From positions 1-29,408 of IMG/VR virus record IMGVR_UViG_3300042887_001701: DNA of 29,408 nucleotides. The stretch is one strand, 5' to 3'. Positions 531 to 27,906 of the stretch are shown piece after piece; positions within the stretch are counted from its first letter, which is position 1; the number at the start of each line of letters is the position of its first letter. Under the pieces are notes generated by a model. It saw nothing but the letters and a program-made list of their open reading frames with translations. It ran no database searches and was not told the DNA's origin. This DNA comes from a virus. A program made the translations under genes and the position numbers.

Positions 531-2332
531 GCATAACTAGCAGTTAAAGCGTATGAAGACGATATACTATTTAAAGACCAACTAGAGGTTCCGTATAAAG
601 ATGCGGTCAATCCTCCATTAATACTCACGCTTCCAGTAATAATAATAGACGCGGAAGCAAATAATGATCCTGTAAATTCTATAACATCCGCGTTTGTTGA
701 TAGTATTGTTTGTCCATTTTCACCAACTAAGCTAGTAGAACCAGAAACAACCAACGATCCACTTATAACAACACTTCCTGTAGTATACTGAACAGAACTT
801 GTTATAGTTTGTACGTATAAATTTGTTACAAGTATTGATGATGCGGTTACTTGACCAAAAGTTACATTATTTGCGTTAGTAAATGCGACCCCTCCGCCGT
901 TACTAAGTTGGAATGAGCTTGTGACCATGTTTTCTGGGGTGTATCCAGATGTACCGCTAGATCCGGATGTTCCACTAGTACCAGAAGTTCCACTGGTACC
1001 GCTTGTGCCACTGGTACCCGATGATCCACTTGTTCCAGTTGTACCACTTGAACCCGACGTTCCACTTGAACCCGACGTTCCACTTGAACCCGACGTTCCA
1101 CTTGAACCGGATGTACCACTAGTTCCACTTGTTCCAGAAGTACCGCTTGACCCAGATGTACCATCTGTTCCGCTGGTACCAGATGTACCATCCGTCCCAC
1201 TCGTCCCACTTGAACCCGACGTTCCACTTGAACCGGATGTACCACTAGTTCCACTTGTTCCAGAAGTACCGCTTGACCCAGATGTACCATCTGTTCCGCT
1301 GGTACCAGATGTACCATCCGTCCCACTCGTCCCACTTGAACCAGACGTTCCGCTTGAACCCGACGTTCCACTTGAACCGGATGTACCGTCCGTTCCACTT
1401 GTACCGCTTGTACCTGAAGTACCACTTGACCCCGATGTACCATCTGTTCCGCTTGTTCCTGCCGTGCCGCTTGAACCGGACGTACCACTAGTTCCACTAG
1501 TACCACTGGTTCCGCTATAACTTAATGCATACGACGCAGTTATTGCCCAACTAGAAGTTCCGTAAAGAGAACCTGTTATGCCAGCAGTGACATCCAAACT
1601 GCCAGTCACCGATAACTTTTTATATACACTTACACCGCCGTTTTCTATTTTTAATCTATAATCATATGAATCGCTGCTAACAGTAAAAACATGCCCGCCA
1701 ACAAGGGTATCGTCTGCATCATAATATACACCATTAGCATTTCTATCGCCTATGGTCAAATATCTGTTATTGGCTCCGTCAAACCATTTTAATGTTGGTT
1801 TTCCAGCATTACCTTGAAACTTAACAGAACCACCATCTACACTCGTAAGATTTATAGCATGTGGATTATCTGTAACTATATCAAACTCTTTCGTATAATC
1901 ACTTGTTATGGCTGATGCGGTAACTGTATTGAATGTAACATTACTGCCAGAATTGAATGCAAAATAAGTACCGGCATTTGTCAATTGAAGACTACTAGAA
2001 ATATATCCACCAGATAATGCATATGATGAAGTTAATGCATATGCCGAGCTAATTGCGTTTTCTGCCCAAGATGATGTTCCAGAAGCAATTCCTATAAGGT
2101 ATGAGGCAGTTGCTGCATAAGAAGATGATATTGCATTATAAGCCCAACTGGCTGTTCCAGCAGCCAATCCATCCAAATATGAAGCCGTCAAAGCATATGA
2201 TGCAGTAACTGCTACACTGGAAGTTAGATATGCAAAACTACCTGTGATTTTTCCATGAATAGTTAATCCACCAGATACTTCCGCGTCGCCATTTACGAAT
2301 AATCCATTTTGTACTATCAGGTGGTTGTCCAT
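1..2332 (-). CDS. Collagen-like tail fibre / adhesin protein, 3' end outside window
   Basis: The reading frame starts at ATG 2332 and stays open to the left edge, giving at least 777 residues. The N-terminal ~270 residues have no collagen repeat. They carry motifs of the type GTSSWAxNAISSSYALTASY, seen in tandem near residues 35-115 and again near 260 and 590. Such Ala/Ser/Tyr motifs are common in marine phage fibres. Two tracts with Gly at every third residue follow (about residues 271-462 and 602 to the edge). They are built of GTS, GSS, GTD, GAN and GGS triplets, with a ~140-residue non-collagen spacer between them. Gly-X-Y tracts in phage proteins generally form trimeric fibre rods. It is the last gene of the neck operon and starts 12 bases after the tandem stop of the gp15-like gene. 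It is very rich in Ser and Thr, so it is a plausible O-glycosylation target. Fibre identity is inferred from composition and context. Confidence 0.85.
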   Translation of the reverse strand, partial: MDNHLIVQNGLFVNGDAEVSGGLTIHGKITGSFAYLTSSVAVTASYALTASYLDGLAAGTASWAYNAISSSYAATASYLIGIASGTSSWAENAISSAYALTSSYALSGGYISSSLQLTNAGTYFAFNSGSNVTFNTVTASAITSDYTKEFDIVTDNPHAINLTSVDGGSVKFQGNAGKPTLKWFDGANNRYLTIGDRNANGVYYDADDTLVGGHVFTVSSDSYDYRLKIENGGVSVYKKLSVTGSLDVTAGITGSLYGTSSWAITASYALSYSGTSGTSGTSGTSGSSGTAGTSGTDGTSGSSGTSGTSGTSGTDGTSGSSGTSGSSGTSGSSGTSGTDGTSGTSGTDGTSGSSGTSGTSGTSGTSGSSGTSGSSGTSGTDGTSGTSGTDGTSGSSGTSGTSGTSGTSGSSGTSGSSGTSGSSGTSGSSGTTGTSGSSGTSGTSGTSGTSGTSGTSGSSGTSGYTPENMVTSSFQLSNGGGVAFTNANNVTFGQVTASSILVTNLYVQTITSSVQYTTGSVVISGSLVVSGSTSLVGENGQTILSTNADVIEFTGSLFASASIIITGSVSINGGLTASLYGTSSWSLNSISSSYALTASYAFSYSGTSGSSGSSGTSGTTGTAGSSGTSGSSGTSGSSGSTGTSGSSGSSGTTGSSGSSGTSGTGGSSGTSGANGSSGTSGTGGSSGTSGTGGSSGTSGANGSSGTGGSSGTSGANGSSGTSGTGGSSGTSGTGGSSGTSGANGSSGTSGTGGSSGTSGANGSSGTSGTGGSSGTSG
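947..1518 (-). repeat. First collagen-like Gly-X-Y tract
   Basis: About 64 Gly-X-Y triplets (mainly GTS, GSS and GTD) are encoded on the minus strand without interruption. The tract starts after a Tyr-Ser junction and ends where the sequence changes to GYTPENM, the start of the spacer domain. Confidence 0.85.
1080..1342 (-). repeat. Tandem 126-bp direct repeat inside collagen tract
   Basis: The bases from about 1080 to 1216 are repeated without difference from about 1206 to 1342, an offset of 126 bases. The unit encodes 42 residues, or 14 Gly-X-Y triplets. Identity at synonymous positions means the duplication is recent, unlike the diverged repeats elsewhere in the gene. Confidence 0.8.
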
Positions 2333-6230: not shown

Positions 6231-6234
6231 AACT

Positions 6235-6565: not shown

Positions 6566-8185
6566 TTAAACTTCGTTGAGGTTGCCGATGACGATCTTGC
6601 CGTAAAATTCGGGCCTGATCATCTTCTTGGCATAACGTGTCATCACGCCACGGCGTGGTGTGAAGTTCACTGGGTCGTACACCAATGGTGTCTGAATCAG
6701 TGGGATGTATGGAGCGTATACAGCACCGGTTTCTAGGAAGTTGCTTCCACGGAAACCAACCAACATAACGTTGTCGGTCATGTATGGGTTCTTGTAAACG
6801 GTCCAACGGTTGCTTAGAGCGCCAACCTTGGCAACACCCATTGCGAACTTGGCTTGATCGCCGTCCGTGTTGGTTGTGAAGCCAGGGATGCTTTCGATGA
6901 TGGTAGCAACGTCTGGGCTGCAAACTAGGAAGTTTGCACCACCACGCAGGGTCAACTGGTGGATCTTGTTGCTGACCTTCTGGATCTTGTTACCCAATGT
7001 CTGGAACCAGGTGCTCTTGACATAAGCAGTGCGGTTAGCAGCTGTGTCAGCGAACAATCCGGTTGTAGCATTGTATTCCTGACCGATACGAGCGGACCAG
7101 AATTCAGTTGTTACTGCTGGAGCATTGACGAGCAACATATCGAGGATTTCGAGGTCGATTTCCATCGAAACGTATTCGCTCAATAGAGCAGTAAGTTCTG
7201 CTTCTGCGTCGATTGAGTGATATGCGTTCAAGTCCTGAGCCAATTCTGGGGTCCAGACGGCCTTTAGCTTACGGGTCTTGGCAACGATAGCTTCAGACTT
7301 TAGCTCTAGGTTTACTTCTGGAATACCAACGTCGGCATATAGACCTGAAGTGCCAGCGCCAGCGGAAGCTGCGGTGTCTTCGAAGTCGCCACGGCTGCTG
7401 TCGGCTGGCTGCTTGTGATAAGCAACAGACGCATTGCCGCTGACTGCTGAACCCGAAACGTAGAAGATTACGTTGTTGCCAGAAACGGTTGTGAATGCTG
7501 GATAGAAATCAACGATTCCGGAGCCAGAGACGGTGAAAGCACGAGCGCCATTGGCGTCGAAGTTTGTTCCGCTCAAGGAAACGGTTACCGACTGAATCTT
7601 TCCTGCGCTTAAGGAAGCGCTGAGGTCGGTGTTGAAGTTGATGTCTTCCCAAGTTGGGCCGTTTGCGGTGCTATTAGAACCGGTGGTCATTGCTGGGGTA
7701 GCTGTCTGGTCATTGATGGTATAACCAAAGCGACCTTGGCCATATAGACCGTTGGTTGCGCTGTCGGTTGAACCTAGCTTGGTGCCCGTACCACCGAATA
7801 GCGAGTTACCGCTGAATGCTGGCTTACCAGCCTGATCGCTACCATACTTGAAGTCTAGATAGAATACTAGACCGGATGGCAGGTTCATTGGCTGAACGCT
7901 GACGAATTCCTTAGCAGCAATTTCAGCGAACACACGACGAACCAATGGTAGAGCAACGCCTGCCCATTGTTCGGAGTTCGATGAAGTTCCTGTACGGGTA
8001 GCTTCGTCGATTAGTTGTTTAGCCTGATTTTCCAGAAGAATGGACATGTGTGACTTTTCCATGTCGCTCTTGATGCCTTCTAGAAGACCAGTCTTTTCCC
8101 ACTTGGATACGAGTCCACGGGTTTCGGACATGAGCTTAACCATTGGATTGGTTGTCTCAGTTAGTAGTGATTTGATATCTGACAT
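6566..8185 (-). CDS. 23: Major capsid protein (gp23-like)
   Basis: The product has 539 residues, close to T4 gp23 (521). The stretch WAGVALPLVRRVFAEIAAKE and the following VSVQPMNLPSGLVFYLDFKYG segment (about 75-115) are the conserved start of the mature gp23 fold. A 'FTPRRGVMTRYAKKMIRPEF' stretch ends the protein. The N-terminal 61 residues look like the T4 propeptide, which prohead protease removes after (L/I)-x-E. Here LIDE|A (59-62) is the likely cut. A Ser/Thr/Gly-rich beta region (about 145-275) may be the insertion domain. The start follows a good AAAGGA ribosome site. The gene sits after the scaffold gene and ends at a strong terminator. Confidence 0.95.
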   Translation of the reverse strand: MSDIKSLLTETTNPMVKLMSETRGLVSKWEKTGLLEGIKSDMEKSHMSILLENQAKQLIDEATRTGTSSNSEQWAGVALPLVRRVFAEIAAKEFVSVQPMNLPSGLVFYLDFKYGSDQAGKPAFSGNSLFGGTGTKLGSTDSATNGLYGQGRFGYTINDQTATPAMTTGSNSTANGPTWEDINFNTDLSASLSAGKIQSVTVSLSGTNFDANGARAFTVSGSGIVDFYPAFTTVSGNNVIFYVSGSAVSGNASVAYHKQPADSSRGDFEDTAASAGAGTSGLYADVGIPEVNLELKSEAIVAKTRKLKAVWTPELAQDLNAYHSIDAEAELTALLSEYVSMEIDLEILDMLLVNAPAVTTEFWSARIGQEYNATTGLFADTAANRTAYVKSTWFQTLGNKIQKVSNKIHQLTLRGGANFLVCSPDVATIIESIPGFTTNTDGDQAKFAMGVAKVGALSNRWTVYKNPYMTDNVMLVGFRGSNFLETGAVYAPYIPLIQTPLVYDPVNFTPRRGVMTRYAKKMIRPEFYGKIVIGNLNEV

Positions 8186-14104: not shown

Positions 14105-16012
14105 TTACTGCTGTTTGTCTTCTTCTATCAGGTTTGATTCATCTAATATAGATTTTTTTTCAGTTATAACCTGTTTGTGCTTATTATTATATCTTGCTTT
14201 TAGGGCAGTTTTTATACTCTTCAAATCTTCGTCCATTGATAATGCCCCGCCTCTATATATATGGCGGGTAGAACGCTCCGTGTTTGACTTTTCTTTATTT
14301 TCCTTGTTGCCAAGGGGGTCTTCACCAAAGTTCTTGGTATGAGATGATGTATATTTTTCCTTGTTTCCTGTTTGGTCTCTATTGCCACGTTCGCGATCTT
14401 TGCGTGTTTCTTCTTCGAGTGGAGGCAAGCCGCCTTCGTCGCCACCTCCTCCGCCGCCTGCTTCTTCGCCTCCGCCACCGAGATCTCCAAGCCCTCCACC
14501 AGTATCACCCCCACCGCCAAGGTCTTCTGGCCCTTTATCACTCATCTTTTGATTACTTGTGGCGGGATCGTTTCCTTCAGACGTAATCTGTTCCATACGC
14601 CACGCTTGCTTTTTGTCTTTGATTACGTCTGCTTGAACGTCTTCAACTTCATCTTCGGACAAGTTGAATACTTGATTATATATCCACTTCTTGCTGAACA
14701 TATTGCTTTCAATCATATCCGAAGCAAGGCTTATCTTGTTAGACCATATTTCCAACTTTTCTTGTTCAAAGATGGTGCTTGGATTGCTTAGTTCAAGTTC
14801 AAAATCAACGAGTGTAGCGTCCTGATAACCCTGCACATACAAATGAACTACGGCAATCTTTGTTAGTTCAGACACGATGATACGCTGTATTCTACCGATT
14901 GTTCTGCTAAATCTAACATCTTCGGCGGCAAGAGTTGCTTTACCAGACAATCCTTCTTCATATCCAAGAAATGCCTTTGGAATCTTGAGTGCCGCCATCA
15001 TCTTATTACGAATATATTCCAAATCATCGATGCCTGTGAAATCCATACCAGGCAATGTATCTATGTTTGTGCCACTGTCGCTACCACGAACAGGTAGATA
15101 AAAATCTTCAACCATATTATTCAAGTTGAAGCGTAGGTTATAATCACCAGTACGTTCGTCGATATATGGAACCTTCTTTACTTGGCTGATGATCTTCTGC
15201 ATTGCTGTATCAATGTCGGCGGGAGGAATATTTCCTACATCAACCTTGAATATACGCTTTTCTGGAGCACGCATGATGCGATGAATAAGCATTGCGTCTT
15301 CCATCAAACTTAGTTGCTTCCATACACGACGTGCTGGTTCAATCATCGACTTACCATATGGCAAAAAGTTGCTGTCGCTCAATAAACGAAAATGTGCGAT
15401 CTCAAAGTTTTCATATTCCATACCACCGCCCATACCATCGTGCTGATACTTTACATAGTTGATATTCTGCGGGTCGCTGCCTTCTATACGAGTGATTTCG
15501 TATGGGCTGATTGGATGAACAAGAAACACACCATATTCCGGCGATATTTCCATACGTAGGAAAAAGTCGCCATACTTACACATATTGCGTGTCCAACTCC
15601 ACATATTGAACTCGACATTCAAGATGTCATAGAAAAGATTTTCCAATATCTTTTTTACGTTTTCATTTTTGCTGCGGATGGTCAATACTCTACCAAACTC
15701 GCTTGGCACAAGACATTCATCGCTATATATGTCCAACGCACTTGCGATAATAGGATCCATATCCATAACGTCATAATCTCTAAACAACTCAAGACGGCTT
15801 GCTTGATAAGCCATACTCATGTCACGATTATGCAAGTTGAATGTGCTGCTGCGTAGACGATTGAAACGGTCTCTTAGGCTATTTCTGTCTGTAGCATATT
15901 GTATTTCATCTGTGTCAACAATCTTTAGTTTTTTGCCGCCCACATTACGAACGATAACGTCCGTAGAAAACATTTTCTTTAGTCTGCTAAATAAGTCTTT
16001 TGTTTCTGCCAT
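14105..16012 (-). CDS. 20: Portal protein (gp20-like)
   Basis: The product has 635 residues, longer than T4 gp20 (524). The N-terminal two-thirds matches the portal pattern: DMDPIIASALDIYSDEC (85-101), then MWSWTRNMCKYGDFFLRMEI (137-156). Later come LPGMDFTGIDDLEYIRNKM and the KIPKAFLGYEEGLSGK stretch, the conserved stem-and-wing region. The portal forms the dodecameric DNA-entry ring and binds terminase and neck. The C-terminal extension has a Gly-rich linker (about 494-527, seen as GGGG blocks), then a charged, Lys/Glu/Asn-rich tail. That tail is the odd part and may face the head interior. The gene starts 63 bases after the terminase stop. Confidence 0.92.
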   Translation of the reverse strand: MAETKDLFSRLKKMFSTDVIVRNVGGKKLKIVDTDEIQYATDRNSLRDRFNRLRSSTFNLHNRDMSMAYQASRLELFRDYDVMDMDPIIASALDIYSDECLVPSEFGRVLTIRSKNENVKKILENLFYDILNVEFNMWSWTRNMCKYGDFFLRMEISPEYGVFLVHPISPYEITRIEGSDPQNINYVKYQHDGMGGGMEYENFEIAHFRLLSDSNFLPYGKSMIEPARRVWKQLSLMEDAMLIHRIMRAPEKRIFKVDVGNIPPADIDTAMQKIISQVKKVPYIDERTGDYNLRFNLNNMVEDFYLPVRGSDSGTNIDTLPGMDFTGIDDLEYIRNKMMAALKIPKAFLGYEEGLSGKATLAAEDVRFSRTIGRIQRIIVSELTKIAVVHLYVQGYQDATLVDFELELSNPSTIFEQEKLEIWSNKISLASDMIESNMFSKKWIYNQVFNLSEDEVEDVQADVIKDKKQAWRMEQITSEGNDPATSNQKMSDKGPEDLGGGGDTGGGLGDLGGGGEEAGGGGGGDEGGLPPLEEETRKDRERGNRDQTGNKEKYTSSHTKNFGEDPLGNKENKEKSNTERSTRHIYRGGALSMDEDLKSIKTALKARYNNKHKQVITEKKSILDESNLIEEDKQQ

Positions 16013-16075: not shown

Positions 16076-17725
16076 TTATCGTAGCAGCCAAGTTAGGTCT
16101 TCTGGTTTGGCACCATGCATGCCAGGTCCACCAACGTGCATTTGCCACGGGTTGTTATATACGCCAAATGGATTTACTCCTTTATCACCATTTAGCGTCT
16201 TCATATTGTTTATCATTTGTTGTGGCGACGCTACTCCTATTCTGTCTATTATTGTGCGTGTAACACTATCTGCTTCTTTTCTAAGCCGCAATGCTACATC
16301 TCTTATCCATAAAGATATACCCATTGCCATAACAAGGTCATCATTATATCCATCCATTGCTTCTGCTTTGGCAGATACTGCTCCGCTTTTCCATATAAAA
16401 ACTTGTAGTTCTTCTATAAGTCGCTTGCTGTGTATAATAACTTCTTTGTTTCTGAAATAACTTTCTAGTTTTGATATTAGCAGCGGGCGAGATTTGTGTG
16501 ATGTAGTAAAGCCGGGTGTCATTTTACGTTCTTCTCTATTCAACTTGTTGGTCATTTGATTTTCTACATCAACATATTGTAGGTCGGCGGAACTATAGAA
16601 AAGATTTGGATAGTTGGCATCAAGCACTTCTTGTATTACTGCCCAGCCAACATTGGCATTTTCCACAACAAGCAATGCATTATTATATTCTGTTGCCATT
16701 GTCATTAGTGCTCGTGCATATTCCTTGGTTGGCAACTTACCTTTATATTCAGCAACCTGTTCCATTGTTTCTATATCAAGTATTTGAGCGGCACTATAGT
16801 CGCTGGCATCGCCACGAGCAACGTCGGCAGACACCATATATGATTTACCTGCTTCTGGATACTTGAATATCCAATAACCTTTGTCTATTCCGCGTTTTTC
16901 CAACGGCTCACATACATGCGTTTTTTCATACCATTGTAGCGTTGGAATATCTATGACGGTATTGCCAGATGTGCTAAACTCACAATCACATTCTTGAGCC
17001 GCGCCTCTTTCACCGGACAGTTTTGTTTGCTCATCTCTCCATTTTTGGTCTCGTTCTGGATGTAGATGCCAAGGCAAACTGATGCGGTTCATGTTGTTCT
17101 GACCTGCTTCAGATTCTGTCCACATCTTATGGAACCAGTTGCCTACGCCGTTTGGTGTAGATAGTATGATTGCTTTACCACCAGTTGATAATGTATATTG
17201 AGCAGACAGCCATATTTCTTCAATATTGTCAATGAACGCCGCTTCGTCAACCACCAGCAATGACAACGCACTTGAACGACCAGATGTGCCCGCACTGCTC
17301 GCCGCCTTGATTTCGGAACCGTTTCTTAGTTTCAATGACAATCTATTGTCTTCTACGGCAGGCACTTTTAGCCAACTTGGCAGATTATCATTGGCGAATC
17401 TAACTTTTGTAACAATCGCCTTGGATGTTTCTTGTGTAATACTCAAACACAAAATCTGCTTGTCTGTATGAAATGTCATGAGCCAAATCGCATAACCAGA
17501 TACAAGAGTTGTAATACCCATCTGGCGACTCTTCAATATGATATTCTGGTCGTGTTTTACGAAGTCTTCCAATGCTTCATCCTGAAACGGATATGTAAGA
17601 AATGGCAATGTGCCGCGTGTAGGATGTTGTATCTTTACATACTTCTTCATGAAATACACAGGGTCTTTTAGACACTTGGCGTATTCCAACTTTATAACAT
17701 CTTTTAGATTTTGCGTTGCTGCCAT
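16076..17725 (-). CDS. 17: Terminase large subunit (gp17-like)
   Basis: The product has 549 residues (T4 gp17 has 610). The ATPase half has a deviant Walker A, LKSRQMGITT (64-73), where the usual GKT lysine is Ile. K65 at the start of the motif may replace it, as in some other terminases. Walker B is LSLLVVDEAAFID (154-166), with E161 the likely catalytic Glu, and the coupling motif is LSTPNG (188-193). The nuclease half has an RNase H-like triad: D301 (VSADVARGD), E355 (VVENANVG) and D463 (GYNDDLVMA). The enzyme pumps DNA through the portal and cuts concatemers at headful. No small terminase gene is recognisable beside it. It starts three bases after the upstream gene. Confidence 0.95.
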   Translation of the reverse strand: MAATQNLKDVIKLEYAKCLKDPVYFMKKYVKIQHPTRGTLPFLTYPFQDEALEDFVKHDQNIILKSRQMGITTLVSGYAIWLMTFHTDKQILCLSITQETSKAIVTKVRFANDNLPSWLKVPAVEDNRLSLKLRNGSEIKAASSAGTSGRSSALSLLVVDEAAFIDNIEEIWLSAQYTLSTGGKAIILSTPNGVGNWFHKMWTESEAGQNNMNRISLPWHLHPERDQKWRDEQTKLSGERGAAQECDCEFSTSGNTVIDIPTLQWYEKTHVCEPLEKRGIDKGYWIFKYPEAGKSYMVSADVARGDASDYSAAQILDIETMEQVAEYKGKLPTKEYARALMTMATEYNNALLVVENANVGWAVIQEVLDANYPNLFYSSADLQYVDVENQMTNKLNREERKMTPGFTTSHKSRPLLISKLESYFRNKEVIIHSKRLIEELQVFIWKSGAVSAKAEAMDGYNDDLVMAMGISLWIRDVALRLRKEADSVTRTIIDRIGVASPQQMINNMKTLNGDKGVNPFGVYNNPWQMHVGGPGMHGAKPEDLTWLLR

Positions 17726-18127: not shown

Positions 18128-20920
18128 TTATCTATTATCTATATAAAATAGAAACTCCGAATAACGTAGCATTTCTGCGTCATTATCTATGCACCATTTT
18201 ATATCAACCAAATCTACGCTAAGAATTTCATACTTCTTGAATCTGGATAAAACTCTTCTGAAACTATTTAGTTTTTCAAGTTTATCGGGACCATGAAAAT
18301 GCCATTCACCGGCAATTTTTCTTACATTTTTAACGATCCAATCCATATTCTTTTCAGAAAATACGGAATATTCACCACCCTCACAGTCTATTTTCAAGAA
18401 ATCTATCTTTGATAATTTGGATACGCTTAGTATTTGATCAAAAGTAAACAGATCCATATCTTCCGTTATTCCATCATAACTCAATCCATTTTTAATTTTT
18501 TCTGCTACTGCTCCCACTCCACAATTCAATACCATCGAGTTCAGTGATTTTACGTTTTTTATTAGCGTCGGAACTCTTACTTTACTCGGTTCTACTGCAA
18601 CAACCTTTGACGGTTTGCGATGTTTGATAGAATATATGAATGCTCCAACGTGAGCCCCAATATCGAGCACAACATCGTTCTCTTCAACATTAAAAAATTT
18701 TTCATATATTTGCGTATTTCCGCCGAAAAATTCATTAAACATTGTGGTACGGCTATGTTCTGACTGAATTCCCCATTCAAACTCACGCGAAGAGTCGCTA
18801 TCAATAATTTTATTTATAACATTGATAACATCTTGAGGATATATCTTCTTAGTGCACTCAAAATCCTTGTTTCTTGGGCACCATTTCCAATCTCCCTTAT
18901 CAAATGTGCAATTATTGTCATTCCAGCAACCGTGGCATACATTTTTATTTATTATTCTGTATGGCGTGTTGAACTCTGCAAACTCTTCGCTAAATCCGCT
19001 TATCAATATAGTCCGCTGTCTTGCTGCCCAAGAAAGCCAACTTAGTCCAGAACCTAATCCAATGAAAAACTCTGCACCGGCTATTTGAGACAATCTTTCT
19101 TCCAACGAAAATTTTCCAGTTTTATCTACAACGCCATATGGCATATAGTTCATATATTTTCCATTACCATAACTTGAATGTAAATCTATGCACCATACTT
19201 CATACCCTTTTGATTTTATATATTCTACGACCGTTTTCCAACCATCCGGATTATTCCAATATTTAGCCTGTGCCGTACTTTGTGTTCCTATACAAACATA
19301 CTTTGATACCGACTTATTTGGAGTTATTTTAAATGTTGGGGGTATTTCAACTTCTGGCAATCCAAGGATACTTTGGGCAATAACCGCCAAAGACATTTTA
19401 CGAGGATTTTCTCGCACATTTCCTTCCCAATTATTTTGGTCAAAATACCCTATGGTATATGTGGCATAATACCCATCGTTGTTATCGTTTAATCTTGAAA
19501 AATTGATATTAGAATAGTTTTTTCTGAATAGCTCCAGAACCTCGTCGTGATATACCACGCAAGTAAGTTTGCAATTATGTTTTTTCTGGAACGTATCAAC
19601 TGCACCAATATACGCCATTAAGTCTCCGAGACTTGAGGTTTCTAATACTACTTTGACCGGTTTATTTGTCATATCCAATATATGAGTATCAACCAAAGTT
19701 TCCCAATTTTCGCTGACAATTTCATATACCTCAACTTTCCAGTTTCCATAATATTTTTTACTGGTGCAAGCCCACATATTGTTATTCAATATGGATTCAT
19801 ATACCACATTTCCTGTATCCAAATCTATGAATTTTGCTCTATACTTTTTATTTACTGGACCAAGTATTTCAACCTTTGGTCCAGATGGAAACGATACATT
19901 TATTTTATTCTTTGCTTCTTTATGAGTTTTCTCGCACAATTCATAATTTAAAATTATTTTATTCGCAAAAATACGTTCTCTATATTCGCTATACAAACCG
20001 ACCAACTCGTGTACTCTATTTCTATATGAATTTGATCTTGCGTTGAATAATGCATCTGCTCTAAATTTATCATAGTTTTCGTCAACATTCTTTATTGCGG
20101 CGATTGCCTCGTCCAAATCTCGTTTGCATACTGCCATACCTTTGTATGTACTTTCTTCAAACGTACCTATGACTGGCAAACCACTCGCCATAGCCTCAAG
20201 TAATGTGAGATTAGGATGGCCAGCTTCAAGTTCTGAAAAATGAAGAAATGCATCATTTTCATTATACAAGTGCGTCAGCCACTTTTCATCAAGGTCATAC
20301 AACTTGGTAAGACCAGTATAGTTGTTTAGTTCCGGTTCAAGTGTCTTAAAGAAATTGTCATTGTTTCTTGGTCCTGCAATGGTAATTGGCAAGCCGAGGG
20401 TCTTTGCTGCCTGTATTGCAATCTTGAATCCTTTTCTATCTATACTTTGGTCATATGCATATCCGTTGTTCGCTACACAAAGTAACTTCAAGTTTTTGTG
20501 TCTTTGACGCTTATTGAATGTAAAGATATCTGTATTTACAGCGTGGCTAAAGTATCTAAGTTTCTTGCTACCAAAGTATGGTACAAGATATTTACACGGA
20601 GAAAGTGAAAACACGCTGTTCTCAATCGCCTTTAGGTTTTCTTTAAATAGTTGCGAATCTTTGCCATACAAATATGCGTGATGATCGTGAATGGTAAAAA
20701 TATAAGGTACACCACGTTCGTGTAGCAAGTTTGCTAAATTTGCTACGTGTACATGTACTACACAACTATCATCATATTTGACTTCATCGGTATATTTGAT
20801 TTCGCTGCGAAGACCAATATTCAGCATTTCTTGATGATAGTCCCATATGATTTTTTCAATTGCTCCCCAACCGTTTGGTGGAATTGGAAGAATACCAGGA
20901 TTGATGTTTATGATTTTCAT
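18128..20920 (-). CDS. Tri-domain GT4 - TibC-like O-heptosyltransferase - FkbM methyltransferase
   Basis: ATG 20920 (930 residues) is preferred over 20956 because MKIININPGI is a typical GT4 start. Residues 1-320 are a GT-B, GT4-type glycosyltransferase (PPNGWGAIEK, E232, LLEAMASGLPV 240-250). Residues 340-420 form a beta linker. Residues 422-705 resemble autotransporter O-heptosyltransferases of the TibC/Aah type: VVLETSSLGDL (424-433), QSTAQAKYWNNPDGW (547-561) and GLGSGLSWLSWA (621-632). They include a cysteine finger with C662, C665, C681 and C689 (C671 extra), set around GDWKWCP. Those enzymes transfer heptose to Ser of secreted adhesins, and their finger binds iron. Residues 715-930 are an FkbM-type methyltransferase (VLDIGAHVGA 751-760; KIDCEGGEYS 843-852). 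The gene is last in the glycan island. Domain calls are strong; substrate is inferred. Confidence 0.85.
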   Translation of the reverse strand: MKIININPGILPIPPNGWGAIEKIIWDYHQEMLNIGLRSEIKYTDEVKYDDSCVVHVHVANLANLLHERGVPYIFTIHDHHAYLYGKDSQLFKENLKAIENSVFSLSPCKYLVPYFGSKKLRYFSHAVNTDIFTFNKRQRHKNLKLLCVANNGYAYDQSIDRKGFKIAIQAAKTLGLPITIAGPRNNDNFFKTLEPELNNYTGLTKLYDLDEKWLTHLYNENDAFLHFSELEAGHPNLTLLEAMASGLPVIGTFEESTYKGMAVCKRDLDEAIAAIKNVDENYDKFRADALFNARSNSYRNRVHELVGLYSEYRERIFANKIILNYELCEKTHKEAKNKINVSFPSGPKVEILGPVNKKYRAKFIDLDTGNVVYESILNNNMWACTSKKYYGNWKVEVYEIVSENWETLVDTHILDMTNKPVKVVLETSSLGDLMAYIGAVDTFQKKHNCKLTCVVYHDEVLELFRKNYSNINFSRLNDNNDGYYATYTIGYFDQNNWEGNVRENPRKMSLAVIAQSILGLPEVEIPPTFKITPNKSVSKYVCIGTQSTAQAKYWNNPDGWKTVVEYIKSKGYEVWCIDLHSSYGNGKYMNYMPYGVVDKTGKFSLEERLSQIAGAEFFIGLGSGLSWLSWAARQRTILISGFSEEFAEFNTPYRIINKNVCHGCWNDNNCTFDKGDWKWCPRNKDFECTKKIYPQDVINVINKIIDSDSSREFEWGIQSEHSRTTMFNEFFGGNTQIYEKFFNVEENDVVLDIGAHVGAFIYSIKHRKPSKVVAVEPSKVRVPTLIKNVKSLNSMVLNCGVGAVAEKIKNGLSYDGITEDMDLFTFDQILSVSKLSKIDFLKIDCEGGEYSVFSEKNMDWIVKNVRKIAGEWHFHGPDKLEKLNSFRRVLSRFKKYEILSVDLVDIKWCIDNDAEMLRYSEFLFYIDNR

Positions 20921-20925
20921 AGCAT

Positions 20926-22689
20926 TTATCTTTTTAAATTTACATATGATATGCAATCTGAGGCATATTCTGTATATAATAATTTTTCATTCTCGTACAC
21001 GGACATTGATTTTGTGTCACCCGGCACTTCGTTCCACATCCACCCGCCCGCGCCACTTGTTTCATGATGTATGTAAAACTCTTCACCATTGTTTTTTAAT
21101 AGTTTTATTTTTCTATTTGTTTTAACTGAGTGATATGAATATGTCAACAAAATGTATGTGTTTCCGCGTTTATATAAATTAGTTTCTTTATTATATTCAT
21201 TTACATAATATAATTTTGTAGTACATTTTCCGTATTTTGAATCAAAGCTGCTAACCGAAGTTTCGGTGTTCCAATGGGTATCACACAAGTCCACATACAT
21301 GTTTTTTTCTCCAAGTTTTGTGATAAACTCGCTATCCCCATTTCGTTTAAGATTATCGTAAACAAAAACTTCCACTATTCTGAATTCTTTGTTGTTATGA
21401 TATTTTTTGAGATATTCAACATAATCTTGCTCACACGATATTCTTGGCACCTTTGACAGAAATGAATCTATTTCGCAGTAAAAATAATGAAAAGATATAT
21501 CCGGTTGACTATCTTCTTCGTTATAATAAAATAATCCTTTCTTGTTTTCGCTCGCACACATCTCTGGAACATTTTTAATATATTCACGAGACTTTTTGCC
21601 GAACAAATCATCAACCTCAAACCGCTGAAAATGTGTATAGCCTTGAGCTTTTGCGTATATCAATGCATTAAATAAATTAACTAATACAGATAATCCGTGT
21701 TTTTGAAGTACCGGAACTATATCGTGCATTTCAAACCAATCGTTAAATACTTTCCAAAAATCAACCAAGTTTGCTCCTTGTTCATATTTTTCACTGAATA
21801 GCTGATTGCGATGGTCGTATAAATAAAACTTCACCTTGCTTAGTATTTCCTTGTCTACGGAAGTATTTGACACCAGTAACACATCATGCCCATCTTCTTT
21901 CATCCAATCAAGTGCGTCGGATAGTTTTTTTCTTATAGCATCGTTATATACAAAACTGTCTACAATCGTAATAACTTTATGTTGAAAGATGGAATATCTT
22001 TTCGTCAACTCTTTCTGTATTATGCGTTTATTATCAAGCTTTTGATCGTTTGTTGTCATTGAGAACATTCCGCCCTCGTGAATACGATATAATCCAACAC
22101 AATATTTTGTATCGCAATACCCCCGCCCGTGTTTCAATATCTCAAAGTTAAATACCCAGTCGGGATATGGTATTCCAGAAAATATGCTTTCGGGTATGTT
22201 AGCTTTTCTGAAAACTCTGCCAAAAGAAACATAGTTTTCTATTAACATATCACTCAGTTGAAAATCCGGCTTTGCACTTACAACCCAGTAATTTTCTGGT
22301 GTTATTTTGTCATTCTCCATGTACTTGCAACCCGATGAATATACTGCATATGTTGGATTTTCATCCAAGAACTTTACTGCACGCTGAAAATGTTCATTAT
22401 CTATGAAATAATCATCGCCGTCAATGTGTGCGACATATTTTCCAGATACATCGTTCATCAGCAATAGTAGATTTTTTATTGCACCTACATTGGTGGATGA
22501 ATCGAGTATTTTAACATTTGGATTGGATCCGTATGTCTCGCATAACATTTCATATGTACCATCGTTCGTACCATCATCTCTGATGAGAACTTCAAATGAA
22601 AAGTCCATCTTCTGAGAAAGCACGCTATCAACGCACTGTTTGATATAGTCTTTAAACTTATATGATGCTATTATTACTGATAGTTTCAT
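20926..22689 (-). CDS. GT2 glycosyltransferase with additional C-terminal domains
   Basis: The product has 587 residues. The N-terminal ~230 residues are a GT-A, GT2-type glycosyltransferase: MKLSVIIASYKFKDYI start, RDDGTNDGT (37-45), and the metal-binding HIDGDDYF (88-95). The middle (about 250-430) has LLVSNTSVDKEIL and a DLF-containing stretch and may be a second glycosyltransferase-like domain, not recognised. The C-terminal ~120 residues are beta-rich and Tyr-rich (GGWMWNEVPGDT), like a carbohydrate-binding module. Its ATG overlaps the previous stop by four bases, and the next gene starts just after its stop. It adds a sugar to the glycan built by this island; donor and acceptor are unknown. 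Confidence 0.8.
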   Translation of the reverse strand: MKLSVIIASYKFKDYIKQCVDSVLSQKMDFSFEVLIRDDGTNDGTYEMLCETYGSNPNVKILDSSTNVGAIKNLLLLMNDVSGKYVAHIDGDDYFIDNEHFQRAVKFLDENPTYAVYSSGCKYMENDKITPENYWVVSAKPDFQLSDMLIENYVSFGRVFRKANIPESIFSGIPYPDWVFNFEILKHGRGYCDTKYCVGLYRIHEGGMFSMTTNDQKLDNKRIIQKELTKRYSIFQHKVITIVDSFVYNDAIRKKLSDALDWMKEDGHDVLLVSNTSVDKEILSKVKFYLYDHRNQLFSEKYEQGANLVDFWKVFNDWFEMHDIVPVLQKHGLSVLVNLFNALIYAKAQGYTHFQRFEVDDLFGKKSREYIKNVPEMCASENKKGLFYYNEEDSQPDISFHYFYCEIDSFLSKVPRISCEQDYVEYLKKYHNNKEFRIVEVFVYDNLKRNGDSEFITKLGEKNMYVDLCDTHWNTETSVSSFDSKYGKCTTKLYYVNEYNKETNLYKRGNTYILLTYSYHSVKTNRKIKLLKNNGEEFYIHHETSGAGGWMWNEVPGDTKSMSVYENEKLLYTEYASDCISYVNLKR

Positions 22690-23483
22690 CTTGCAGAGTT
22701 ATTAATTTTATATGCACTTAATTCTGGATTTTGACCGGTATGCAGAGATGTAAAATGCTTGCACATCATGCTTTTAAAACCAGCATCTTTCCATCGTATG
22801 GCAAATTCCAATTCTACGCTCATTTTTTCGCGGTCATATGTAGTAGAAAATTCACCAACAGACAGAAGTTTCTTGGCGTCGTGGACACCGGGTCTTAGTG
22901 AAAAATATGGCCAATTTATATAATACATCCACCAATCTGGGCTGGTATGCATAGCCATAACATCGTCCATAAACAGCAAATCGTTTATCGGGCGGTCATC
23001 AAAATACACAGTTTCCCAAAAATCTCCTATAATTTTCTTCGGCTCCATACCCTTTGGAAAATGCTTCCAACTTTGACAATATCCAATATATGCATACTCT
23101 GGATTGTTTTGCATTATGTTTATTGGCTCGCCAATCGTAAACATATTATAAAACTGATGATCGTCCTCAAGATGAAATATATAATCCGCCTTAGAAGAAA
23201 TAATACACTCTCTCCATATATTCAGCATTCTTGAATGTCTATAATTGTCTGGAAAAGTATCACGTTCAACAAACCTGAATATGATGGGCTTTGTTATATA
23301 CTTTGAATATGTATCTAATGCCATCTTACGGTCAACATCCGCCGAAGAATCGTCCAAATAATAAATTTCGTCTATAACGTTTTTATCTGTGCAAAAAATT
23401 CCAAAGCTTTTAATGGCAGAAAACAGCAACTTTGGTCTTCTACAAGCGGTCGTAGTTAGTATGACTTTTTTCCCGTTATACAT
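22686..23483 (-). CDS. GT-A-type glycosyltransferase-like protein, 265 aa
   Basis: VILTTTACRRPKLLFSAIKS (8-27), DDSS (44-47) and FHLEDDHQF (103-111) match the nucleotide-binding and metal-binding parts of a GT-A fold, with EDD in place of DxD. The end (EFAIRWKDAGFKSM) is typical of such enzymes. The exact family is unsure. It lies three bases after the 436-aa gene and overlaps the GT2 gene by four bases, which implies coupled translation in the same pathway. Probably a sugar transferase. Confidence 0.7.
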   Translation of the reverse strand: MYNGKKVILTTTACRRPKLLFSAIKSFGIFCTDKNVIDEIYYLDDSSADVDRKMALDTYSKYITKPIIFRFVERDTFPDNYRHSRMLNIWRECIISSKADYIFHLEDDHQFYNMFTIGEPINIMQNNPEYAYIGYCQSWKHFPKGMEPKKIIGDFWETVYFDDRPINDLLFMDDVMAMHTSPDWWMYYINWPYFSLRPGVHDAKKLLSVGEFSTTYDREKMSVELEFAIRWKDAGFKSMMCKHFTSLHTGQNPELSAYKINNSAR

Positions 23484-23486
23484 AGT

Positions 23487-24797
23487 TTATGTTATTTTTC
23501 TATATACACTTGGGTCAAAGTAATGGTTGTACCATTCTGTTACATTTTCACTATAGTAGCTTGCCCATCTGTGCGAAGATTTTCCAATCCACATTTCCGC
23601 TTCCGTTCTGTTTATTTCTGGCGACGATACAATCAAAGAAAGATTTGGAAGTGTATTGATATATTTTGCACTGGCCCACCAGAAATTTCCGGAATAGTAG
23701 TTCTTAAACACATAGTTCAAGAACGCAAAATACTCAACATATAATGCCCCGCATACATCGTGGGTATCAGTAATCAAATTTTTTACAGATTTTTTCCACA
23801 ATTCTATATTGAAGTATTCCAGGCATCGTCTCCAAGAATGTAGATTAATGTCTTCGGATGGTCTGGAAGTACTCTTGGAATGATAATAAAGAACTACAGC
23901 ATTGGGAACTATCTGGCAATACGTTTGCAGGTGTATTAATGTGGGGTATTCAAACACATTTTTTTCGTATCTTACAATTTCTATTTTTACATCAACATCT
24001 ACGTGTTCGACCATCTTCGTAAACTCATAATATGATTCATCTGTGTCCGAAAATACTCCATATAATATCTTGTCTGCTCGTGAATACAACCCGCTCGTGA
24101 ATAATAACTCCAGTTGTTCGTTTACAACATCTTTCCAATGATTTCTAAGATAGTTATGCGAAAAAACGGCCACTGGAGAATTTTTTAGCAGCCCGATTCC
24201 TCCCCAACTGCCATATGGACTATTTTTTACTATTTGGTGAAATAAATTGTCTGTCCTATATGCGTTGCTTCTTTCGGTGCATACAAATTCCTTATGCTCT
24301 GCATATGTGTCTTTGATTTCTCCCCAAAATTTATCAACGCCAAAGTTGGACATCGGGTTATGTAAAATATCGTGAAATCCCAAATGCCCCGTGGGAGACA
24401 ACAACTGCTTATATTTGAGATAATCATTTTTTACACCATCATACGAATGGTCACCATCTATGAATATAAAATCAAACTTTATTCCGATACGTTTTAGCCT
24501 TTCCAGCGTATCGTTTGACGTTGAATCACCTATAATATAGCTATAATTCGGATGCTTTGACTTTATTTTATCAAAGTTTTCGTCGTGCTTTATGTCAAGT
24601 GTGATGACATTTTCAAACAAATTGCACAACCCAGCAACAAATCCACCACAATTTGATCCAATTTCCAACGCATACCGTCTGTTAGGCATCTCTGCCAAGG
24701 TATCCATTAGCATCTTAAATTCTTCTGGCTTTTGCTCAATATTGTATTGAAGACATTCTTCCCATATAACATTGAAGTTGTAAATTGAGCTTTTCAT
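23487..24797 (-). CDS. SAM methyltransferase fused to glycosyltransferase-associated domain
   Basis: The product has 436 residues. The N-terminal ~190 residues form a class I methyltransferase: ALEIGSNCGGF (43-53) binds SAM, LDIKHDE follows the second strand, and FIDGDHSYDGV (112-122) matches the Methyltransf_24-type metal/acceptor motif. Residues ~205-436 are a separate domain, with VVLYYHSKSTSRP, HSWRRCLEYFNIELWK and SGNFWWASAKYINTLP. I associate this pattern with polysaccharide-cluster proteins of unknown activity. It overlaps its neighbour by four bases. It may methylate a sugar hydroxyl or amine and add a residue. Confidence 0.75.
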   Translation of the reverse strand: MKSSIYNFNVIWEECLQYNIEQKPEEFKMLMDTLAEMPNRRYALEIGSNCGGFVAGLCNLFENVITLDIKHDENFDKIKSKHPNYSYIIGDSTSNDTLERLKRIGIKFDFIFIDGDHSYDGVKNDYLKYKQLLSPTGHLGFHDILHNPMSNFGVDKFWGEIKDTYAEHKEFVCTERSNAYRTDNLFHQIVKNSPYGSWGGIGLLKNSPVAVFSHNYLRNHWKDVVNEQLELLFTSGLYSRADKILYGVFSDTDESYYEFTKMVEHVDVDVKIEIVRYEKNVFEYPTLIHLQTYCQIVPNAVVLYYHSKSTSRPSEDINLHSWRRCLEYFNIELWKKSVKNLITDTHDVCGALYVEYFAFLNYVFKNYYSGNFWWASAKYINTLPNLSLIVSSPEINRTEAEMWIGKSSHRWASYYSENVTEWYNHYFDPSVYRKIT

Positions 24798-25345
24798 GCC
24801 AAATTTATATTTTTTCTCTTCTTGATGAACTTTGCCGGTGCACCGCCTATTATATCAAACGGTTCTGTATTATGTTTCACCAACGAGTGCGAGCCAACGG
24901 AAGTTGCATATTCAAGAACTACGCCGGGTAATATGACGGTATTACAACCAACCAATGCGTGTTTCTTTATGGTTATGCCACCGGTTTTTACTTTCTTGAA
25001 CTCCTCTGCTATTACAGAATTTGCCATATATCCGTCAGTATAATCATCATTTGCGGTGTATAATGTGCAGCGTCCAGAAGTGCAAGTACAGTCTTCCAGA
25101 ACTATGTCATCGGAATTTCCGTAAAAATAACATCCCGCAGATATGTGTATATTATTTCCTATAGTTATTTTATGATTCTTTCCTGCAATTATGACACATT
25201 GAGTATCTATACGAACATTATTTCCGATGGTTATATTCTGAGGGTTGTGGAATATTACATCATTTGCAATAAAGACGGAATCACCAAACTTGATTCCGGC
25301 ACTTGTTAGTTCTTCCGCCGAATAATTTTTAAAAGTTCTAATCAT
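24794..25345 (-). CDS. Left-handed beta-helix acetyltransferase
   Basis: The product has 183 residues with many hexapeptide repeats: ITIGNN, VRIDTQ, KITIGNN, IHISAG and ITIKKH. It ends with VVLEYATSVGSHSLV and IIGGAPAKFIKKR, typical of sugar O- or N-acetyltransferases of the maltose/galactoside acetyltransferase superfamily. These enzymes use acetyl-CoA and act as trimers. A small cysteine-rich turn (CTCTSGRC, about 92) interrupts the helix. It overlaps the aminotransferase-like gene by four bases, so acetylation of the amine made by that enzyme is a reasonable inference. O-acetylation is equally possible. Confidence 0.85.
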   Translation of the reverse strand: MIRTFKNYSAEELTSAGIKFGDSVFIANDVIFHNPQNITIGNNVRIDTQCVIIAGKNHKITIGNNIHISAGCYFYGNSDDIVLEDCTCTSGRCTLYTANDDYTDGYMANSVIAEEFKKVKTGGITIKKHALVGCNTVILPGVVLEYATSVGSHSLVKHNTEPFDIIGGAPAKFIKKRKNINLA

Positions 25346-25971
25346 TGCTTATATATTTCAAACTTTGACAAATCTGGGTATGGGAGTTCTAAATCTTCAT
25401 TGGATTTTGGTGTACCATCCATATTATAAAACTGAGACATCAGTAACAAACCTCTGGCGGCAAGCTCTGGCATCATATAAAAATTCCAACCAAGCATATC
25501 AAAGTTATCATCGTGATACGAACATTCTCTACGTCCGCTATATCTAGCACGCTTAAACCAATGATATGCTTGCAAATCGTCGGTTAATATCGCACCACCC
25601 TTGCTCAATTTAAAATGCTTATACGGTCCCGTAAACGATATGCACATAAACGAGCCCGGTATATACATATTGGCAGTAAATCTTAGTGCACTGTCCCAAG
25701 TACGTGTAGGCTTGAGTTGATATGCACCTTTGATTGTTTTTCCGGAAACTGGCTCAAATTTCACCTTTCCGCCAGCGTGTATAATTTCACACGGTACACT
25801 GGGGTATGTTCTGGATGGTATCGTAATAGTTTTTCCCTTTATATTCTCGTAATATAATGCCAGAAAAATAGCATTACTTGCATTGTCTAAGGTAACTGCG
25901 TGAGGTGCTCCGGTGTATTTTGCCAACTTTTCCTCAAATTCTTCGGTGACTTTGTATACTCCTTGTGCCAT
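25342..25971 (-). CDS. DegT/StrS-type sugar aminotransferase-like protein, short
   Basis: The product has 209 residues, against about 370 for the family. It shows TLDNASNAIFLAL (28-40), TIPSRTYPSVPCEIIHAG (50-67) and SFTGPYKHFKLSKGG (112-126). K118 is the candidate PLP lysine, and GGAILTDD follows. The family moves an amino group from Glu to keto-sugar nucleotides. The C-terminal domain is missing, but the gene has its own stop, is coupled to the acetyltransferase by a four-base overlap, and shows no decay, so it may be a natural short form. If active it would make an amino sugar for the acetyltransferase next to it. The PLP-site assignment is one residue off the usual spacing, so activity is uncertain. 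Confidence 0.65.
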   Translation of the reverse strand: MAQGVYKVTEEFEEKLAKYTGAPHAVTLDNASNAIFLALYYENIKGKTITIPSRTYPSVPCEIIHAGGKVKFEPVSGKTIKGAYQLKPTRTWDSALRFTANMYIPGSFMCISFTGPYKHFKLSKGGAILTDDLQAYHWFKRARYSGRRECSYHDDNFDMLGWNFYMMPELAARGLLLMSQFYNMDGTPKSNEDLELPYPDLSKFEIYKQ

Positions 25972-25974
25972 AAT

Positions 25975-27906
25975 TTACTTTTTTGTTGCAAATATAAATC
26001 CGCCTCTTGAATGCTGTTCATCTAGAATGTAATCATATCCCGCACCTCTTAGTAGCGAAGTTATGGTTTTTACATCCTTGAAATCTCTACCACCAAATCC
26101 GATATGATATTCTATCAATAGATTATCTATTCTATCCAAGTCACTTTTATCCATAGATTCAAATAAATCATATTCTCCGGTTTCAATATCAACTTTCATT
26201 AGATTTATTCTGTCTATGTTGTATTCTCGTAGAAATGTTCTAAATGATATTGCTGGAACTTTATAAGAAGAATTCAAGTCTTCATACTTTTGTGCAGAAG
26301 ATATTGTTGAATTATTTCCATCAACAAAAAACTCAAGTTCGCCATCTTTATTCGTCAACGCTTTTTCAACCAAAATGATTTCATCTTGTGCATATGTGTC
26401 CTTTAATATTGTTAATGCCTGTATATTTGGTTCAATGGCGTATATTTTTCCGCAAGTAGATGCGTGCTTTATATATTCTATCCATATACCAATATTAGCA
26501 CCAACATCCACGATTGTATCAAACTTTTTTCCACCGATATATTTCTCATACACCTTATGAATAAAAAATTCCATATAGTTGTTATATGACGGGGATGTAT
26601 GATTTTTAGTTTTTAATAATGGCTTTTCTACGCTAATAGGGCGTATTCTAAAATCGGTGGAATATATAATTTCATTATTGCTATATACTTCAACGGTCAT
26701 TCCACCAAAAAGCACATCTGTTTCAAAATCTCTGAACTGCTTTGGTACGGGAATTATCCAATAGTTTATATTTGGCTGTAAAACTTCGTGTTCAGACGCA
26801 TATAATACCGTTCTGGAATCTATATCTTTTACAGATATTATGGCATTTGGTATAGGATATTTTGACACATAATCTATCTTGTTGGCAGAACGATCATATG
26901 ATATTTTAATGTCTTCTTCTTTTTTTGGCGTTTCTATCATTGGTTGGTCGGGATTGATTTGTAAAGTTTGTAGTATCTTCTTAGAATTTTCCGTGAGGCT
27001 GTCAAAATTGAGATACTGTATATTTTCATATTTGTCATACATACCAAGATACACGGGCAAGTTGTATATCAACGATGGTATGTTATATGATATTGCTTCA
27101 CGTATTACAAGTGGACTGGTTTCTTTATCATTATTTGTACCGCGAGAAGTAAATAGAAATAGATCTGCTGCCTGATAAAAGTTGTGTACATCCTTGCGTT
27201 CATTCCACCAAGTACAATTTAGTGGAAAATCTTTCATCAATGGCTCCCAATAAAACTTGAAATTGTCTGCTTGATTTCCGATAAAATGAAACTGAATAGG
27301 ATAATTGCGAAGTTGCTTGGCATATTCTATTATTTCCGCTTGATTTTTTCTTGGCGTAAATAACCCAACGTTTATAACGTGCTTCTTGTTCGGATCTAAT
27401 CCAAGCACCTTTAGTGCTTCTTCACGCGGCTTTCTTGGGTTTATTACTATTGGATACTCGCATACATCCATAGGTACATCCAAAGATTTAAGAGTTTCCA
27501 TTTGATATTTGCTTACAAACAATATCTTATCTGGAAACATTGTTTTACTTTGTGGATTAAAACTGCTGTCGTGAGAAGTTTCTATCAGTTTGTATTTTCT
27601 ATCCTTTGAATACAATTCAATGGCAAGATTACCATCCATAAAATATTCCGGCATTTCTTCAAGATGTACAACTTCTGGATTTATCTTGTTTATAATATCC
27701 ATTACTTCCATCTTGTTCTCGCCCAACTCAAAGAATTTATCCTTTAGTATTTCCTTGATCTGATTTCTCTGTACAGTAAATCCACCGTGGTTCGAATATT
27801 CTACGCAATATACTTCGTGCTCTTTTACCAATACTTGTATCTTCTTAAGCAAGTATTGAGGACAACCGCCAGTTGATAGATGCGGAGCAATATATAAAAT
27901 CTTCAT
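25975..27906 (-). CDS. GT4 glycosyltransferase - FkbM methyltransferase fusion
   Basis: The product has 643 residues. The N-terminal ~325 residues are a GT4-type GT-B glycosyltransferase: MKILYIAPHLSTGGCPQYLL start, NVGLFTPRKNQAEII (179-193), FHFIGNQ (207-213) and SPLVIREAISYNIPSLIYN (264-282). A beta-rich linker (about 330-425) follows. Residues 430-643 are an FkbM-type methyltransferase: VDVGANIGIW (466-475), AIEPN (490-494) and MKVDIETGEYD (570-580). FkbM enzymes O-methylate sugars. The design repeats that of the 930-aa protein minus the middle domain. It is the first gene of the glycan island and starts 30 bases after the upstream gene, without an obvious Shine-Dalgarno. Confidence 0.85.
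   Translation of the reverse strand: MKILYIAPHLSTGGCPQYLLKKIQVLVKEHEVYCVEYSNHGGFTVQRNQIKEILKDKFFELGENKMEVMDIINKINPEVVHLEEMPEYFMDGNLAIELYSKDRKYKLIETSHDSSFNPQSKTMFPDKILFVSKYQMETLKSLDVPMDVCEYPIVINPRKPREEALKVLGLDPNKKHVINVGLFTPRKNQAEIIEYAKQLRNYPIQFHFIGNQADNFKFYWEPLMKDFPLNCTWWNERKDVHNFYQAADLFLFTSRGTNNDKETSPLVIREAISYNIPSLIYNLPVYLGMYDKYENIQYLNFDSLTENSKKILQTLQINPDQPMIETPKKEEDIKISYDRSANKIDYVSKYPIPNAIISVKDIDSRTVLYASEHEVLQPNINYWIIPVPKQFRDFETDVLFGGMTVEVYSNNEIIYSTDFRIRPISVEKPLLKTKNHTSPSYNNYMEFFIHKVYEKYIGGKKFDTIVDVGANIGIWIEYIKHASTCGKIYAIEPNIQALTILKDTYAQDEIILVEKALTNKDGELEFFVDGNNSTISSAQKYEDLNSSYKVPAISFRTFLREYNIDRINLMKVDIETGEYDLFESMDKSDLDRIDNLLIEYHIGFGGRDFKDVKTITSLLRGAGYDYILDEQHSRGGFIFATKK

Follow-up and report, generated by a model that had tools for sequence, protein, structure and literature searches.

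The DNA analyzed here comes from a virus (IMG/VR record IMGVR_UViG_3300042887_001701); the whole 29.4-kb stretch (29,408 nucleotides) is referred to below as the window. On its minus strand lies an open reading frame (ORF) for a 930-aa protein in which a GT4-type glycosyltransferase domain, a domain resembling the autotransporter O-heptosyltransferases TibC and Aah (BAHT), and an FkbM-type methyltransferase domain are fused (Table 1). The same strand carries a neighboring cassette of sugar-modifying genes, the structural genes of a T4-like phage and, at the left edge, a gene for a collagen-like tail fiber that is rich in serine and threonine. Taken together with the related loci described below, this arrangement suggests that the TibC-like domain probably initiates O-glycosylation of the collagen-like fiber that the phage itself encodes, and that the cassette would extend the glycan.

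A TibC/Aah-like domain within a three-domain phage protein

The ORF begins with an ATG at position 20920, and this first methionine is invariant among the relatives. All of the signature blocks of autotransporter O-heptosyltransferases that the original prediction had listed (SSLGDL, STAQAKYWNNPDGW, GSGLSWLSWA, SGFSEEF, and GDWKWCP) are found in the protein. The prediction placed the domain at residues 422-705 (positions 18800-19660), an interval that indeed lies within the ORF, but the true start is earlier, at about residue 333, because the TibC-type N-terminal region (residues about 333-420) belongs to the domain. The proposed fusion to GT4 and FkbM domains is borne out: the FkbM match is above threshold, and the GT4 assignment is clear in the orthologs. 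The window's GT4 domain scores 26.6 bits against PF13692, marginally under the Pfam cut-off of 27, and orthologous GT4 domains (45-76% identity to that of the window) score about 39-52 bits against PF00534. The PHROGs collection matched only the GT4 and methyltransferase pieces and has no model for the TibC-like domain.

The middle domain almost certainly belongs to the TibC/Aah family, within a phage branch. Against the NCBIfam model TIGR04414 (hepto_Aah_TibC), a curated equivalog with a cut-off of 200 bits, it scores 347.8 bits, with residues 333-705 spanning positions 5-374 of the 374 in the profile. The best score among the lipopolysaccharide (LPS) heptosyltransferase models is 18.7 bits (heptsyl_trn_I, cut-off 185.3), which sets the domain apart from the WaaC/WaaF type of GT9 enzyme; the match is to the Aah/TibC equivalog and not to GT9 enzymes in general. 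A phmmer search of the PDB recovered TibC itself (4rap) at E=1e-77 over residues 347-708.

The residues on which TibC depends are retained. The D110A mutant of TibC is inactive, T226, K230, R286, and W305 contact ADP-heptose, and C339, C342, C358, and C370 are the iron ligands (PMC4358343). The equivalents of the first five in the window are D433, T549, K553, R609, and W628, all of them kept, and the structure of the D110A mutant (4rb4) has an alanine in the column aligned with Asp433. The counterparts of the four iron ligands are C662, C665, C681, and C689. We aligned 73 homologs, 22 of them bacterial and 51 taken from viral contigs including the window; every sequence (73/73) has the catalytic Asp, Trp305, and the four Cys, and Lys230 is present in 72/73.

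An AlphaFold2 model of residues 331-708, built from this 73-sequence alignment, has a mean pLDDT (predicted local distance difference test) of 96.4. When it was searched with Foldseek, TibC chains came top with a TM-score of about 0.90, followed at about 0.5 by WaaC and HepII, which are ADP-heptose LPS heptosyltransferases. The modeled fold comprises the N-terminal beta domain of TibC and a GT-B catalytic domain with the thumb and finger insertions; model strands 253-256 and 259-262 fall at the thumb position. The original claim that the cysteine cluster corresponds to the iron site of TibC agrees with this confident fold and with the alignment of all four cysteines, and we regard the cluster as a predicted iron site.

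A serine/threonine-rich collagen-like fiber and its pairing with the enzyme family

The fiber can be read over 777 aa before the window ends; as its frame continues past the left end, the ORF list does not include it. It scores 139.4 bits against the Pfam Collagen model (cut-off 27.2), and its PHROGs matches are annotated as tail fiber protein. Two blocks of Gly-Ser/Thr-Ser/Thr repeats together comprise at least 120 Gly-X-Y triplets, in which 133 Ser and 81 Thr fill ~89% of about 240 X/Y positions. The fiber also has non-collagen, Ser-rich TASYA segments. It does not match TIGR04415, the strand-loop-strand (SLS) repeat of the autotransporters modified by TibC-type enzymes; collagen models match it instead.

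Enzymes of this family and such repeats recur together among viruses. The exact DNA pattern for (G-[ST]-[ST])3 is present in 28 of 50 enzyme-bearing viral records, and the reversed pattern in none of the 50. Approached from the repeat, a set of 50 viral contigs of at least 15 kb, chosen solely for five successive G-[ST]-[ST] triplets, includes 17 that encode TIGR04414, compared with 0/45 contigs picked by a random 14-mer and 0/49 picked by a Gly-Pro-X repeat pattern (Fisher p of 4e-6 and 2e-6, respectively). The size of this effect should be read cautiously, as habitat was not matched in the controls and non-collagen sequence rich in G+C is also picked up by the Gly-Pro-X pattern. A looser version of the repeat pattern was likewise found in none of the 45 random contigs.

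Within the window's own T4-like lineage, the strict repeat occurs in 6/29 records with the enzyme and 0/16 without it (p=0.058), and the looser repeat in 14/29 and 1/16 (p=0.004). The enzyme-less records are shorter, however, and at 25 kb or more only 4 of them remain (p=0.13, not significant); on the basis of this length-restricted test we rejected strict co-occurrence inside this lineage.

The two genes also tend to lie close together. Non-redundant phage loci with adequate flanking sequence number 35; in 21 of them the same stretch holds a Ser/Thr-rich Gly-X-Y ORF, which in 13 cases is no more than 1 kb from the enzyme gene. Ten of the 17 enzyme-bearing contigs in the repeat-selected set have the repeat within the roughly 10 kb fetched on each side of the enzyme, and in an eleventh (L568, 15 kb) the two genes are about 13 kb apart. 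In records of at least 100 kb, the repeat lies within 10 kb of the enzyme in 12/22, where about 4 would be expected at random (P about 1e-4), a rough guide that assumes a chosen 35-kb target per record and uses 22 records hand-picked from the above sets. The window's T4-like lineage is an exception in layout, with the enzyme beside the terminase gene and the fiber roughly 16 to 30 kb off, beyond the head genes.

Two phages that were not used to form the idea show the same pairing. The 735-kb metagenomic phage LR756501 has a repeat ORF 3.6 kb from the enzyme gene. The cultured Microcystis phage Mel-JY01 (PP395634.1) encodes a 1226-aa homolog (TIGR04414, 317 bits) less than 3 kb from an open (Gly-Thr-Ser)n frame that runs from record position 2 to at least 2300.

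A separate observation on the Mel-JY01 record (L188:1-2600) is that an annotated hypothetical gene at 739-2298 on the minus strand opposes the plus-strand collagen-like frame; the strand was probably mis-called, and the gene perhaps crosses the start of the record. In some other phages (L016, L017, L019 from position 10842, L559, and L564), two TibC-like genes stand in tandem, one of them short (about 295-300 aa) and without the N-terminal region.

Bacterial relatives, sugar donor, and the surrounding cassette

When peptides derived from the window were searched against 84,980 bacterial and archaeal genomes, 35 loci were recovered, mostly from Acetobacteraceae, Burkholderiaceae, and Lentisphaerota, and the enzymes at these loci are mostly stand-alone proteins of about 400 aa. 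No Ser/Thr collagen repeat was found near the bacterial loci, except on one contig of a metagenome-assembled genome (L549). The phylogeny places TibC and the bacterial sequences in a single clade (100/100), with L021 as the one viral contig inside it; the remaining phage sequences lie elsewhere in the tree, in a group of seven that includes the window and in a larger set. The root of this tree is not fixed and sampling began from a phage query, so we do not claim that the bacterial enzymes originated in phages. The two contigs that cross the divide, L021 (filed as viral, with an enzyme that groups with TibC) and L549 (filed as bacterial, with an enzyme that groups with phages and a Ser/Thr collagen ORF nearby), are likely to be mis-assigned.

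The adenine contact R286 divides the two groups: it is Arg in 21/22 bacterial sequences versus 11/51 phage sequences (the window included), the rest of the phages having mostly Thr, Val, or Leu. These replacements hint at a changed sugar donor in phages. As the window's enzyme is among the few that keep this residue, ADP-heptose is a fair guess for the present phage and uncertain for most of its relatives. We considered and rejected a phage-encoded supply of ADP-heptose, as rfaE domain II (ADP-heptose synthase) is above its cut-off in just 1/48 long enzyme-bearing records; weaker matches to this domain are not diagnostic, the same search being positive in 11/14 control genomes. The donor would therefore come from the host.

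The sugar cassette lies upstream of the fusion gene, and its genes all share the direction of that gene (Table 1). Such a set of genes would be expected to build a short, methyl-capped glycan containing an acetamido sugar, in an order of steps that we can only propose. The 265-aa protein in this cassette had no family match in Pfam or NCBIfam searches. The DegT-type aminotransferase, at 209 aa, is not much over half as long as its 360-position family profile and may be reduced or truncated. The T4-type terminase, gp20 portal, and gp23 capsid genes on the same strand confirm the earlier statement that the fusion belongs to a T4-like phage.

Table 1. Features of the 29.4-kb window discussed in the text (domain boundaries in residues of the encoded protein)
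Feature	Position	Strand	Basis
GT4 - TibC-like heptosyltransferase (BAHT) - FkbM methyltransferase, 930 aa	18128..20920	-	ORF and profile matches
GT4-type glycosyltransferase domain, residues 1-330	19931..20920	-	PF13692, ortholog matches
TibC/Aah-like O-heptosyltransferase domain, residues 333-708, with TibC N-terminal region	18797..19924	-	TIGR04414, TibC 4rap, model
FkbM-type methyltransferase domain, residues 753-891	18248..18664	-	PF05050 44.8 bits; TIGR01444 49.8 bits
Catalytic Asp433 (= TibC D110) in SSLGDL	19622..19624	-	Alignment with TibC
Iron-finger motif C662-x2-C665...C681...C689	18854..18937	-	Alignment with TibC
Collagen-like tail fiber, 777 aa read, cut by window edge	2..2332	-	Translation, Collagen, PHROGs
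First Gly-Ser/Thr-Ser/Thr block, residues 274-462, 63 triplets, 70 Ser and 49 Thr	947..1513	-	Translation
Second Gly-Ser/Thr-Ser/Thr block, residues 606-776, at least 57 triplets (open-ended), 63 Ser and 32 Thr	5..517	-	Translation
T4-type major capsid protein gp23	6566..8185	-	PF07068 265 bits
T4-type portal gp20	14105..16012	-	PF07230 229 bits
T4-type large terminase, downstream of sugar cassette	16076..17725	-	PF03237 50.3 bits
GT2-type glycosyltransferase, encoded immediately upstream of the fusion gene	20926..22689	-	PF00535 79.5 bits
265-aa protein, possibly a glycosyltransferase	22686..23483	-	GT-A-like by eye only
Methyltransferase (Methyltransf_24 / CmcI-like) with C-terminal extension	23487..24797	-	PF13578 48.6 bits
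Left-handed beta-helix sugar acetyltransferase	24794..25345	-	Hexapep; WcaF-like 54.5 bits, below cut-off
Short DegT/DnrJ/EryC1-type aminotransferase	25342..25971	-	PF01041 57.4 bits
Second GT4 - FkbM methyltransferase fusion	25975..27906	-	PF00534 51.9 bits, PF05050 65.3 bits

Proposed glycosylation of the fiber and alternative explanations

We propose that during infection the TibC-like domain would draw on an activated sugar of the host, in the case of this phage most probably ADP-heptose, and place the first sugar on Ser or Thr residues of the (Gly-Ser/Thr-Ser/Thr)n tail fiber. The fused GT4 domain and the neighboring GT2 and GT4 enzymes could then lengthen the glycan, the aminotransferase and acetyltransferase would modify its sugar units, and the two kinds of methyltransferase (FkbM and CmcI-like) would cap it, yielding a virion with a glycoprotein fiber. 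Such a modification might stiffen or shield a flexible, Ser-rich fiber, or alter the contact between host and particle. Computation shows that the domain belongs to the family, has its fold and keeps its active-site residues, that the three domains are fused, and that the fiber is present and such fibers recur with, and close to, the enzyme. We infer the acceptor, the sugar, the order of the steps, and the benefit alike, and the sugar is uncertain in many of the relatives. The earlier suggestion that the phage glycosylates protein and not only polysaccharide gains independent support from the recurrent pairing with Ser/Thr-rich fibers, while the adhesin-like target that it assumed needs to be replaced.

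More tentatively, and with some doubt, the window may represent a widespread phage O-glycosylation system in which TibC-type enzymes act on Ser/Thr-rich collagen-like fibers in T4-like phages, cyanophages, and jumbo phages of up to 735 kb; the donor would have shifted from ADP-heptose in most of them, as the loss of Arg286 suggests, and the bacterial autotransporter enzymes would be one branch of a family whose greater diversity lies in phages.

Several observations weigh against modification of the fiber. In the window, about 16 kb of sequence that includes head and packaging genes separates the enzyme gene from the fiber gene, and in phages more generally fiber and sugar genes might cluster because both occupy variable host-recognition regions. 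A classical strand-loop-strand acceptor was considered and rejected, the TIGR04415 repeat being found in 0/50 related phage records, so that acceptor recognition would have had to shift from a beta-helix to a collagen-like chain. F265 and V266 form the thumb tip of TibC that joins dimers into a dodecamer (PMC4358343); in the window this hydrophobic tip reads K588/Y589, in a column that is variable and often gapped across the family. The loss of R286 in 40/51 phage homologs, though it is present in the window's, and the rarity of an above-cut-off rfaE domain II among the long enzyme-bearing records also count on this side.

The usual view of sugar cassettes in phages is that they serve to change the host surface, and the published interpretations for pelagimyophages (PMC7029224) and jumbo cyanophages (PMC7824862) follow that line. 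By this account the cassette would remodel the O antigen or capsule of the infected cell, for instance to block superinfection, with the TibC-like domain acting as a polysaccharide heptosyltransferase and the link to the fiber being coincidental. The GT2, aminotransferase, acetyltransferase, and methyltransferase genes are indeed typical of polysaccharide loci. However, the domain is far nearer to the protein-modifying TibC than to the LPS heptosyltransferases (348 versus 19 bits; TM 0.90 versus about 0.5), it keeps the iron finger, which in TibC is reported to be needed for the dodecamer and for recognition of TibA (PMC4358343), and its family co-occurs with Ser/Thr-rich collagen fibers and was found in neither control set. 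Polysaccharide remodeling is weakened by this combination of protein-glycosyltransferase identity and fiber pairing, and we consider it unlikely.

A rather smaller chance attaches to glycosylation of some other protein, either elsewhere in the virion (the capsid or TASYA-rich fibers) or on the host surface, for example an autotransporter. Known substrates of the TibC/Aah family are autotransporters made by the same cell (PMC4358343), capsid and tail tube proteins are glycosylated in mycobacteriophages according to PMC12619734, and the fiber itself offers Ser-rich TASYA segments outside its collagen blocks. The missing autotransporter-type acceptor repeat speaks against this, as does a co-occurrence that is specific to (G-[ST]-[ST])n proteins. 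Finally, a multi-domain fusion with an altered thumb tip could harbor the TibC-like part as a decaying or decorative structural passenger that is no longer catalytic. The invariance of the catalytic and Cys residues across deep divergence implies a maintained function, however, and makes this very improbable. O-glycosylation of the collagen-like fiber is our preferred interpretation.

Compared with bacterial TibC/Aah (TIGR04414; PDB 4rap and 4rb4), the window's enzyme is alike in whole-domain sequence, fold, N-terminal region, catalytic Asp, donor contacts, and four Cys, but differs in being fused to GT4 and FkbM domains, in belonging to a T4-like phage and lying outside the bacterial clade, in its likely partner (a collagen-like fiber versus an SLS-repeat autotransporter), and in its thumb tip (Lys-Tyr versus Phe-Val). 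Phage proteins of this type are already in databases: in BFVD, the predicted structures of A0A6J5SVC1 (924 aa, an uncultured Caudovirales phage protein that UniProt calls 'Glycosyltransferase Aah/TibC') and A0A7S9XE01 (virus NIOZ-UU157, 985 aa) match the domain at TM 0.89 and 0.84, respectively. In the open-license literature we found no paper on the function of either protein or on a link to a collagen-like fiber, none linking phages with O-heptosyltransferases, and none on Mel-JY01. What is known is thus the enzyme family and the existence of such phage proteins; what is new is the setting, the architecture, and the probable class of acceptor.

A parallel in principle is the L230 collagen lysyl hydroxylase/glucosyltransferase of Mimivirus (PMC9614988), also a viral enzyme with several domains, which acts on collagen-like proteins of the virus itself, although it is an unrelated enzyme that glucosylates hydroxylysine rather than Ser/Thr and belongs to a eukaryotic virus. 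Mycobacteriophages likewise glycosylate virion proteins (Freeman 2023, as cited in PMC12619734), but there the targets are the capsid and tail tube C-termini.

If fiber glycosylation is correct, many aquatic and jumbo phages would have glycoprotein fibers whose surface could not be predicted from protein sequence alone, with effects on host recognition and particle stability. Collagen-like chains would become the second substrate class of the TibC family, and bacterial viruses would have a counterpart to collagen glycosylation in Mimivirus. As Mel-JY01 is in culture and its host is known (Microcystis), the idea can be tested directly.

Elsewhere in the window, Rfam and tRNA searches found nothing, and models of defense systems gave no match. 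Two plus-strand genes (5571-6441), perhaps a lysis pair, lie among the minus-strand structural genes; one encodes a 219-aa protein that resembles a T4-type lysozyme by eye and matched no model of Pfam or NCBIfam at 0.001, and the other encodes a 68-aa lipoprotein.

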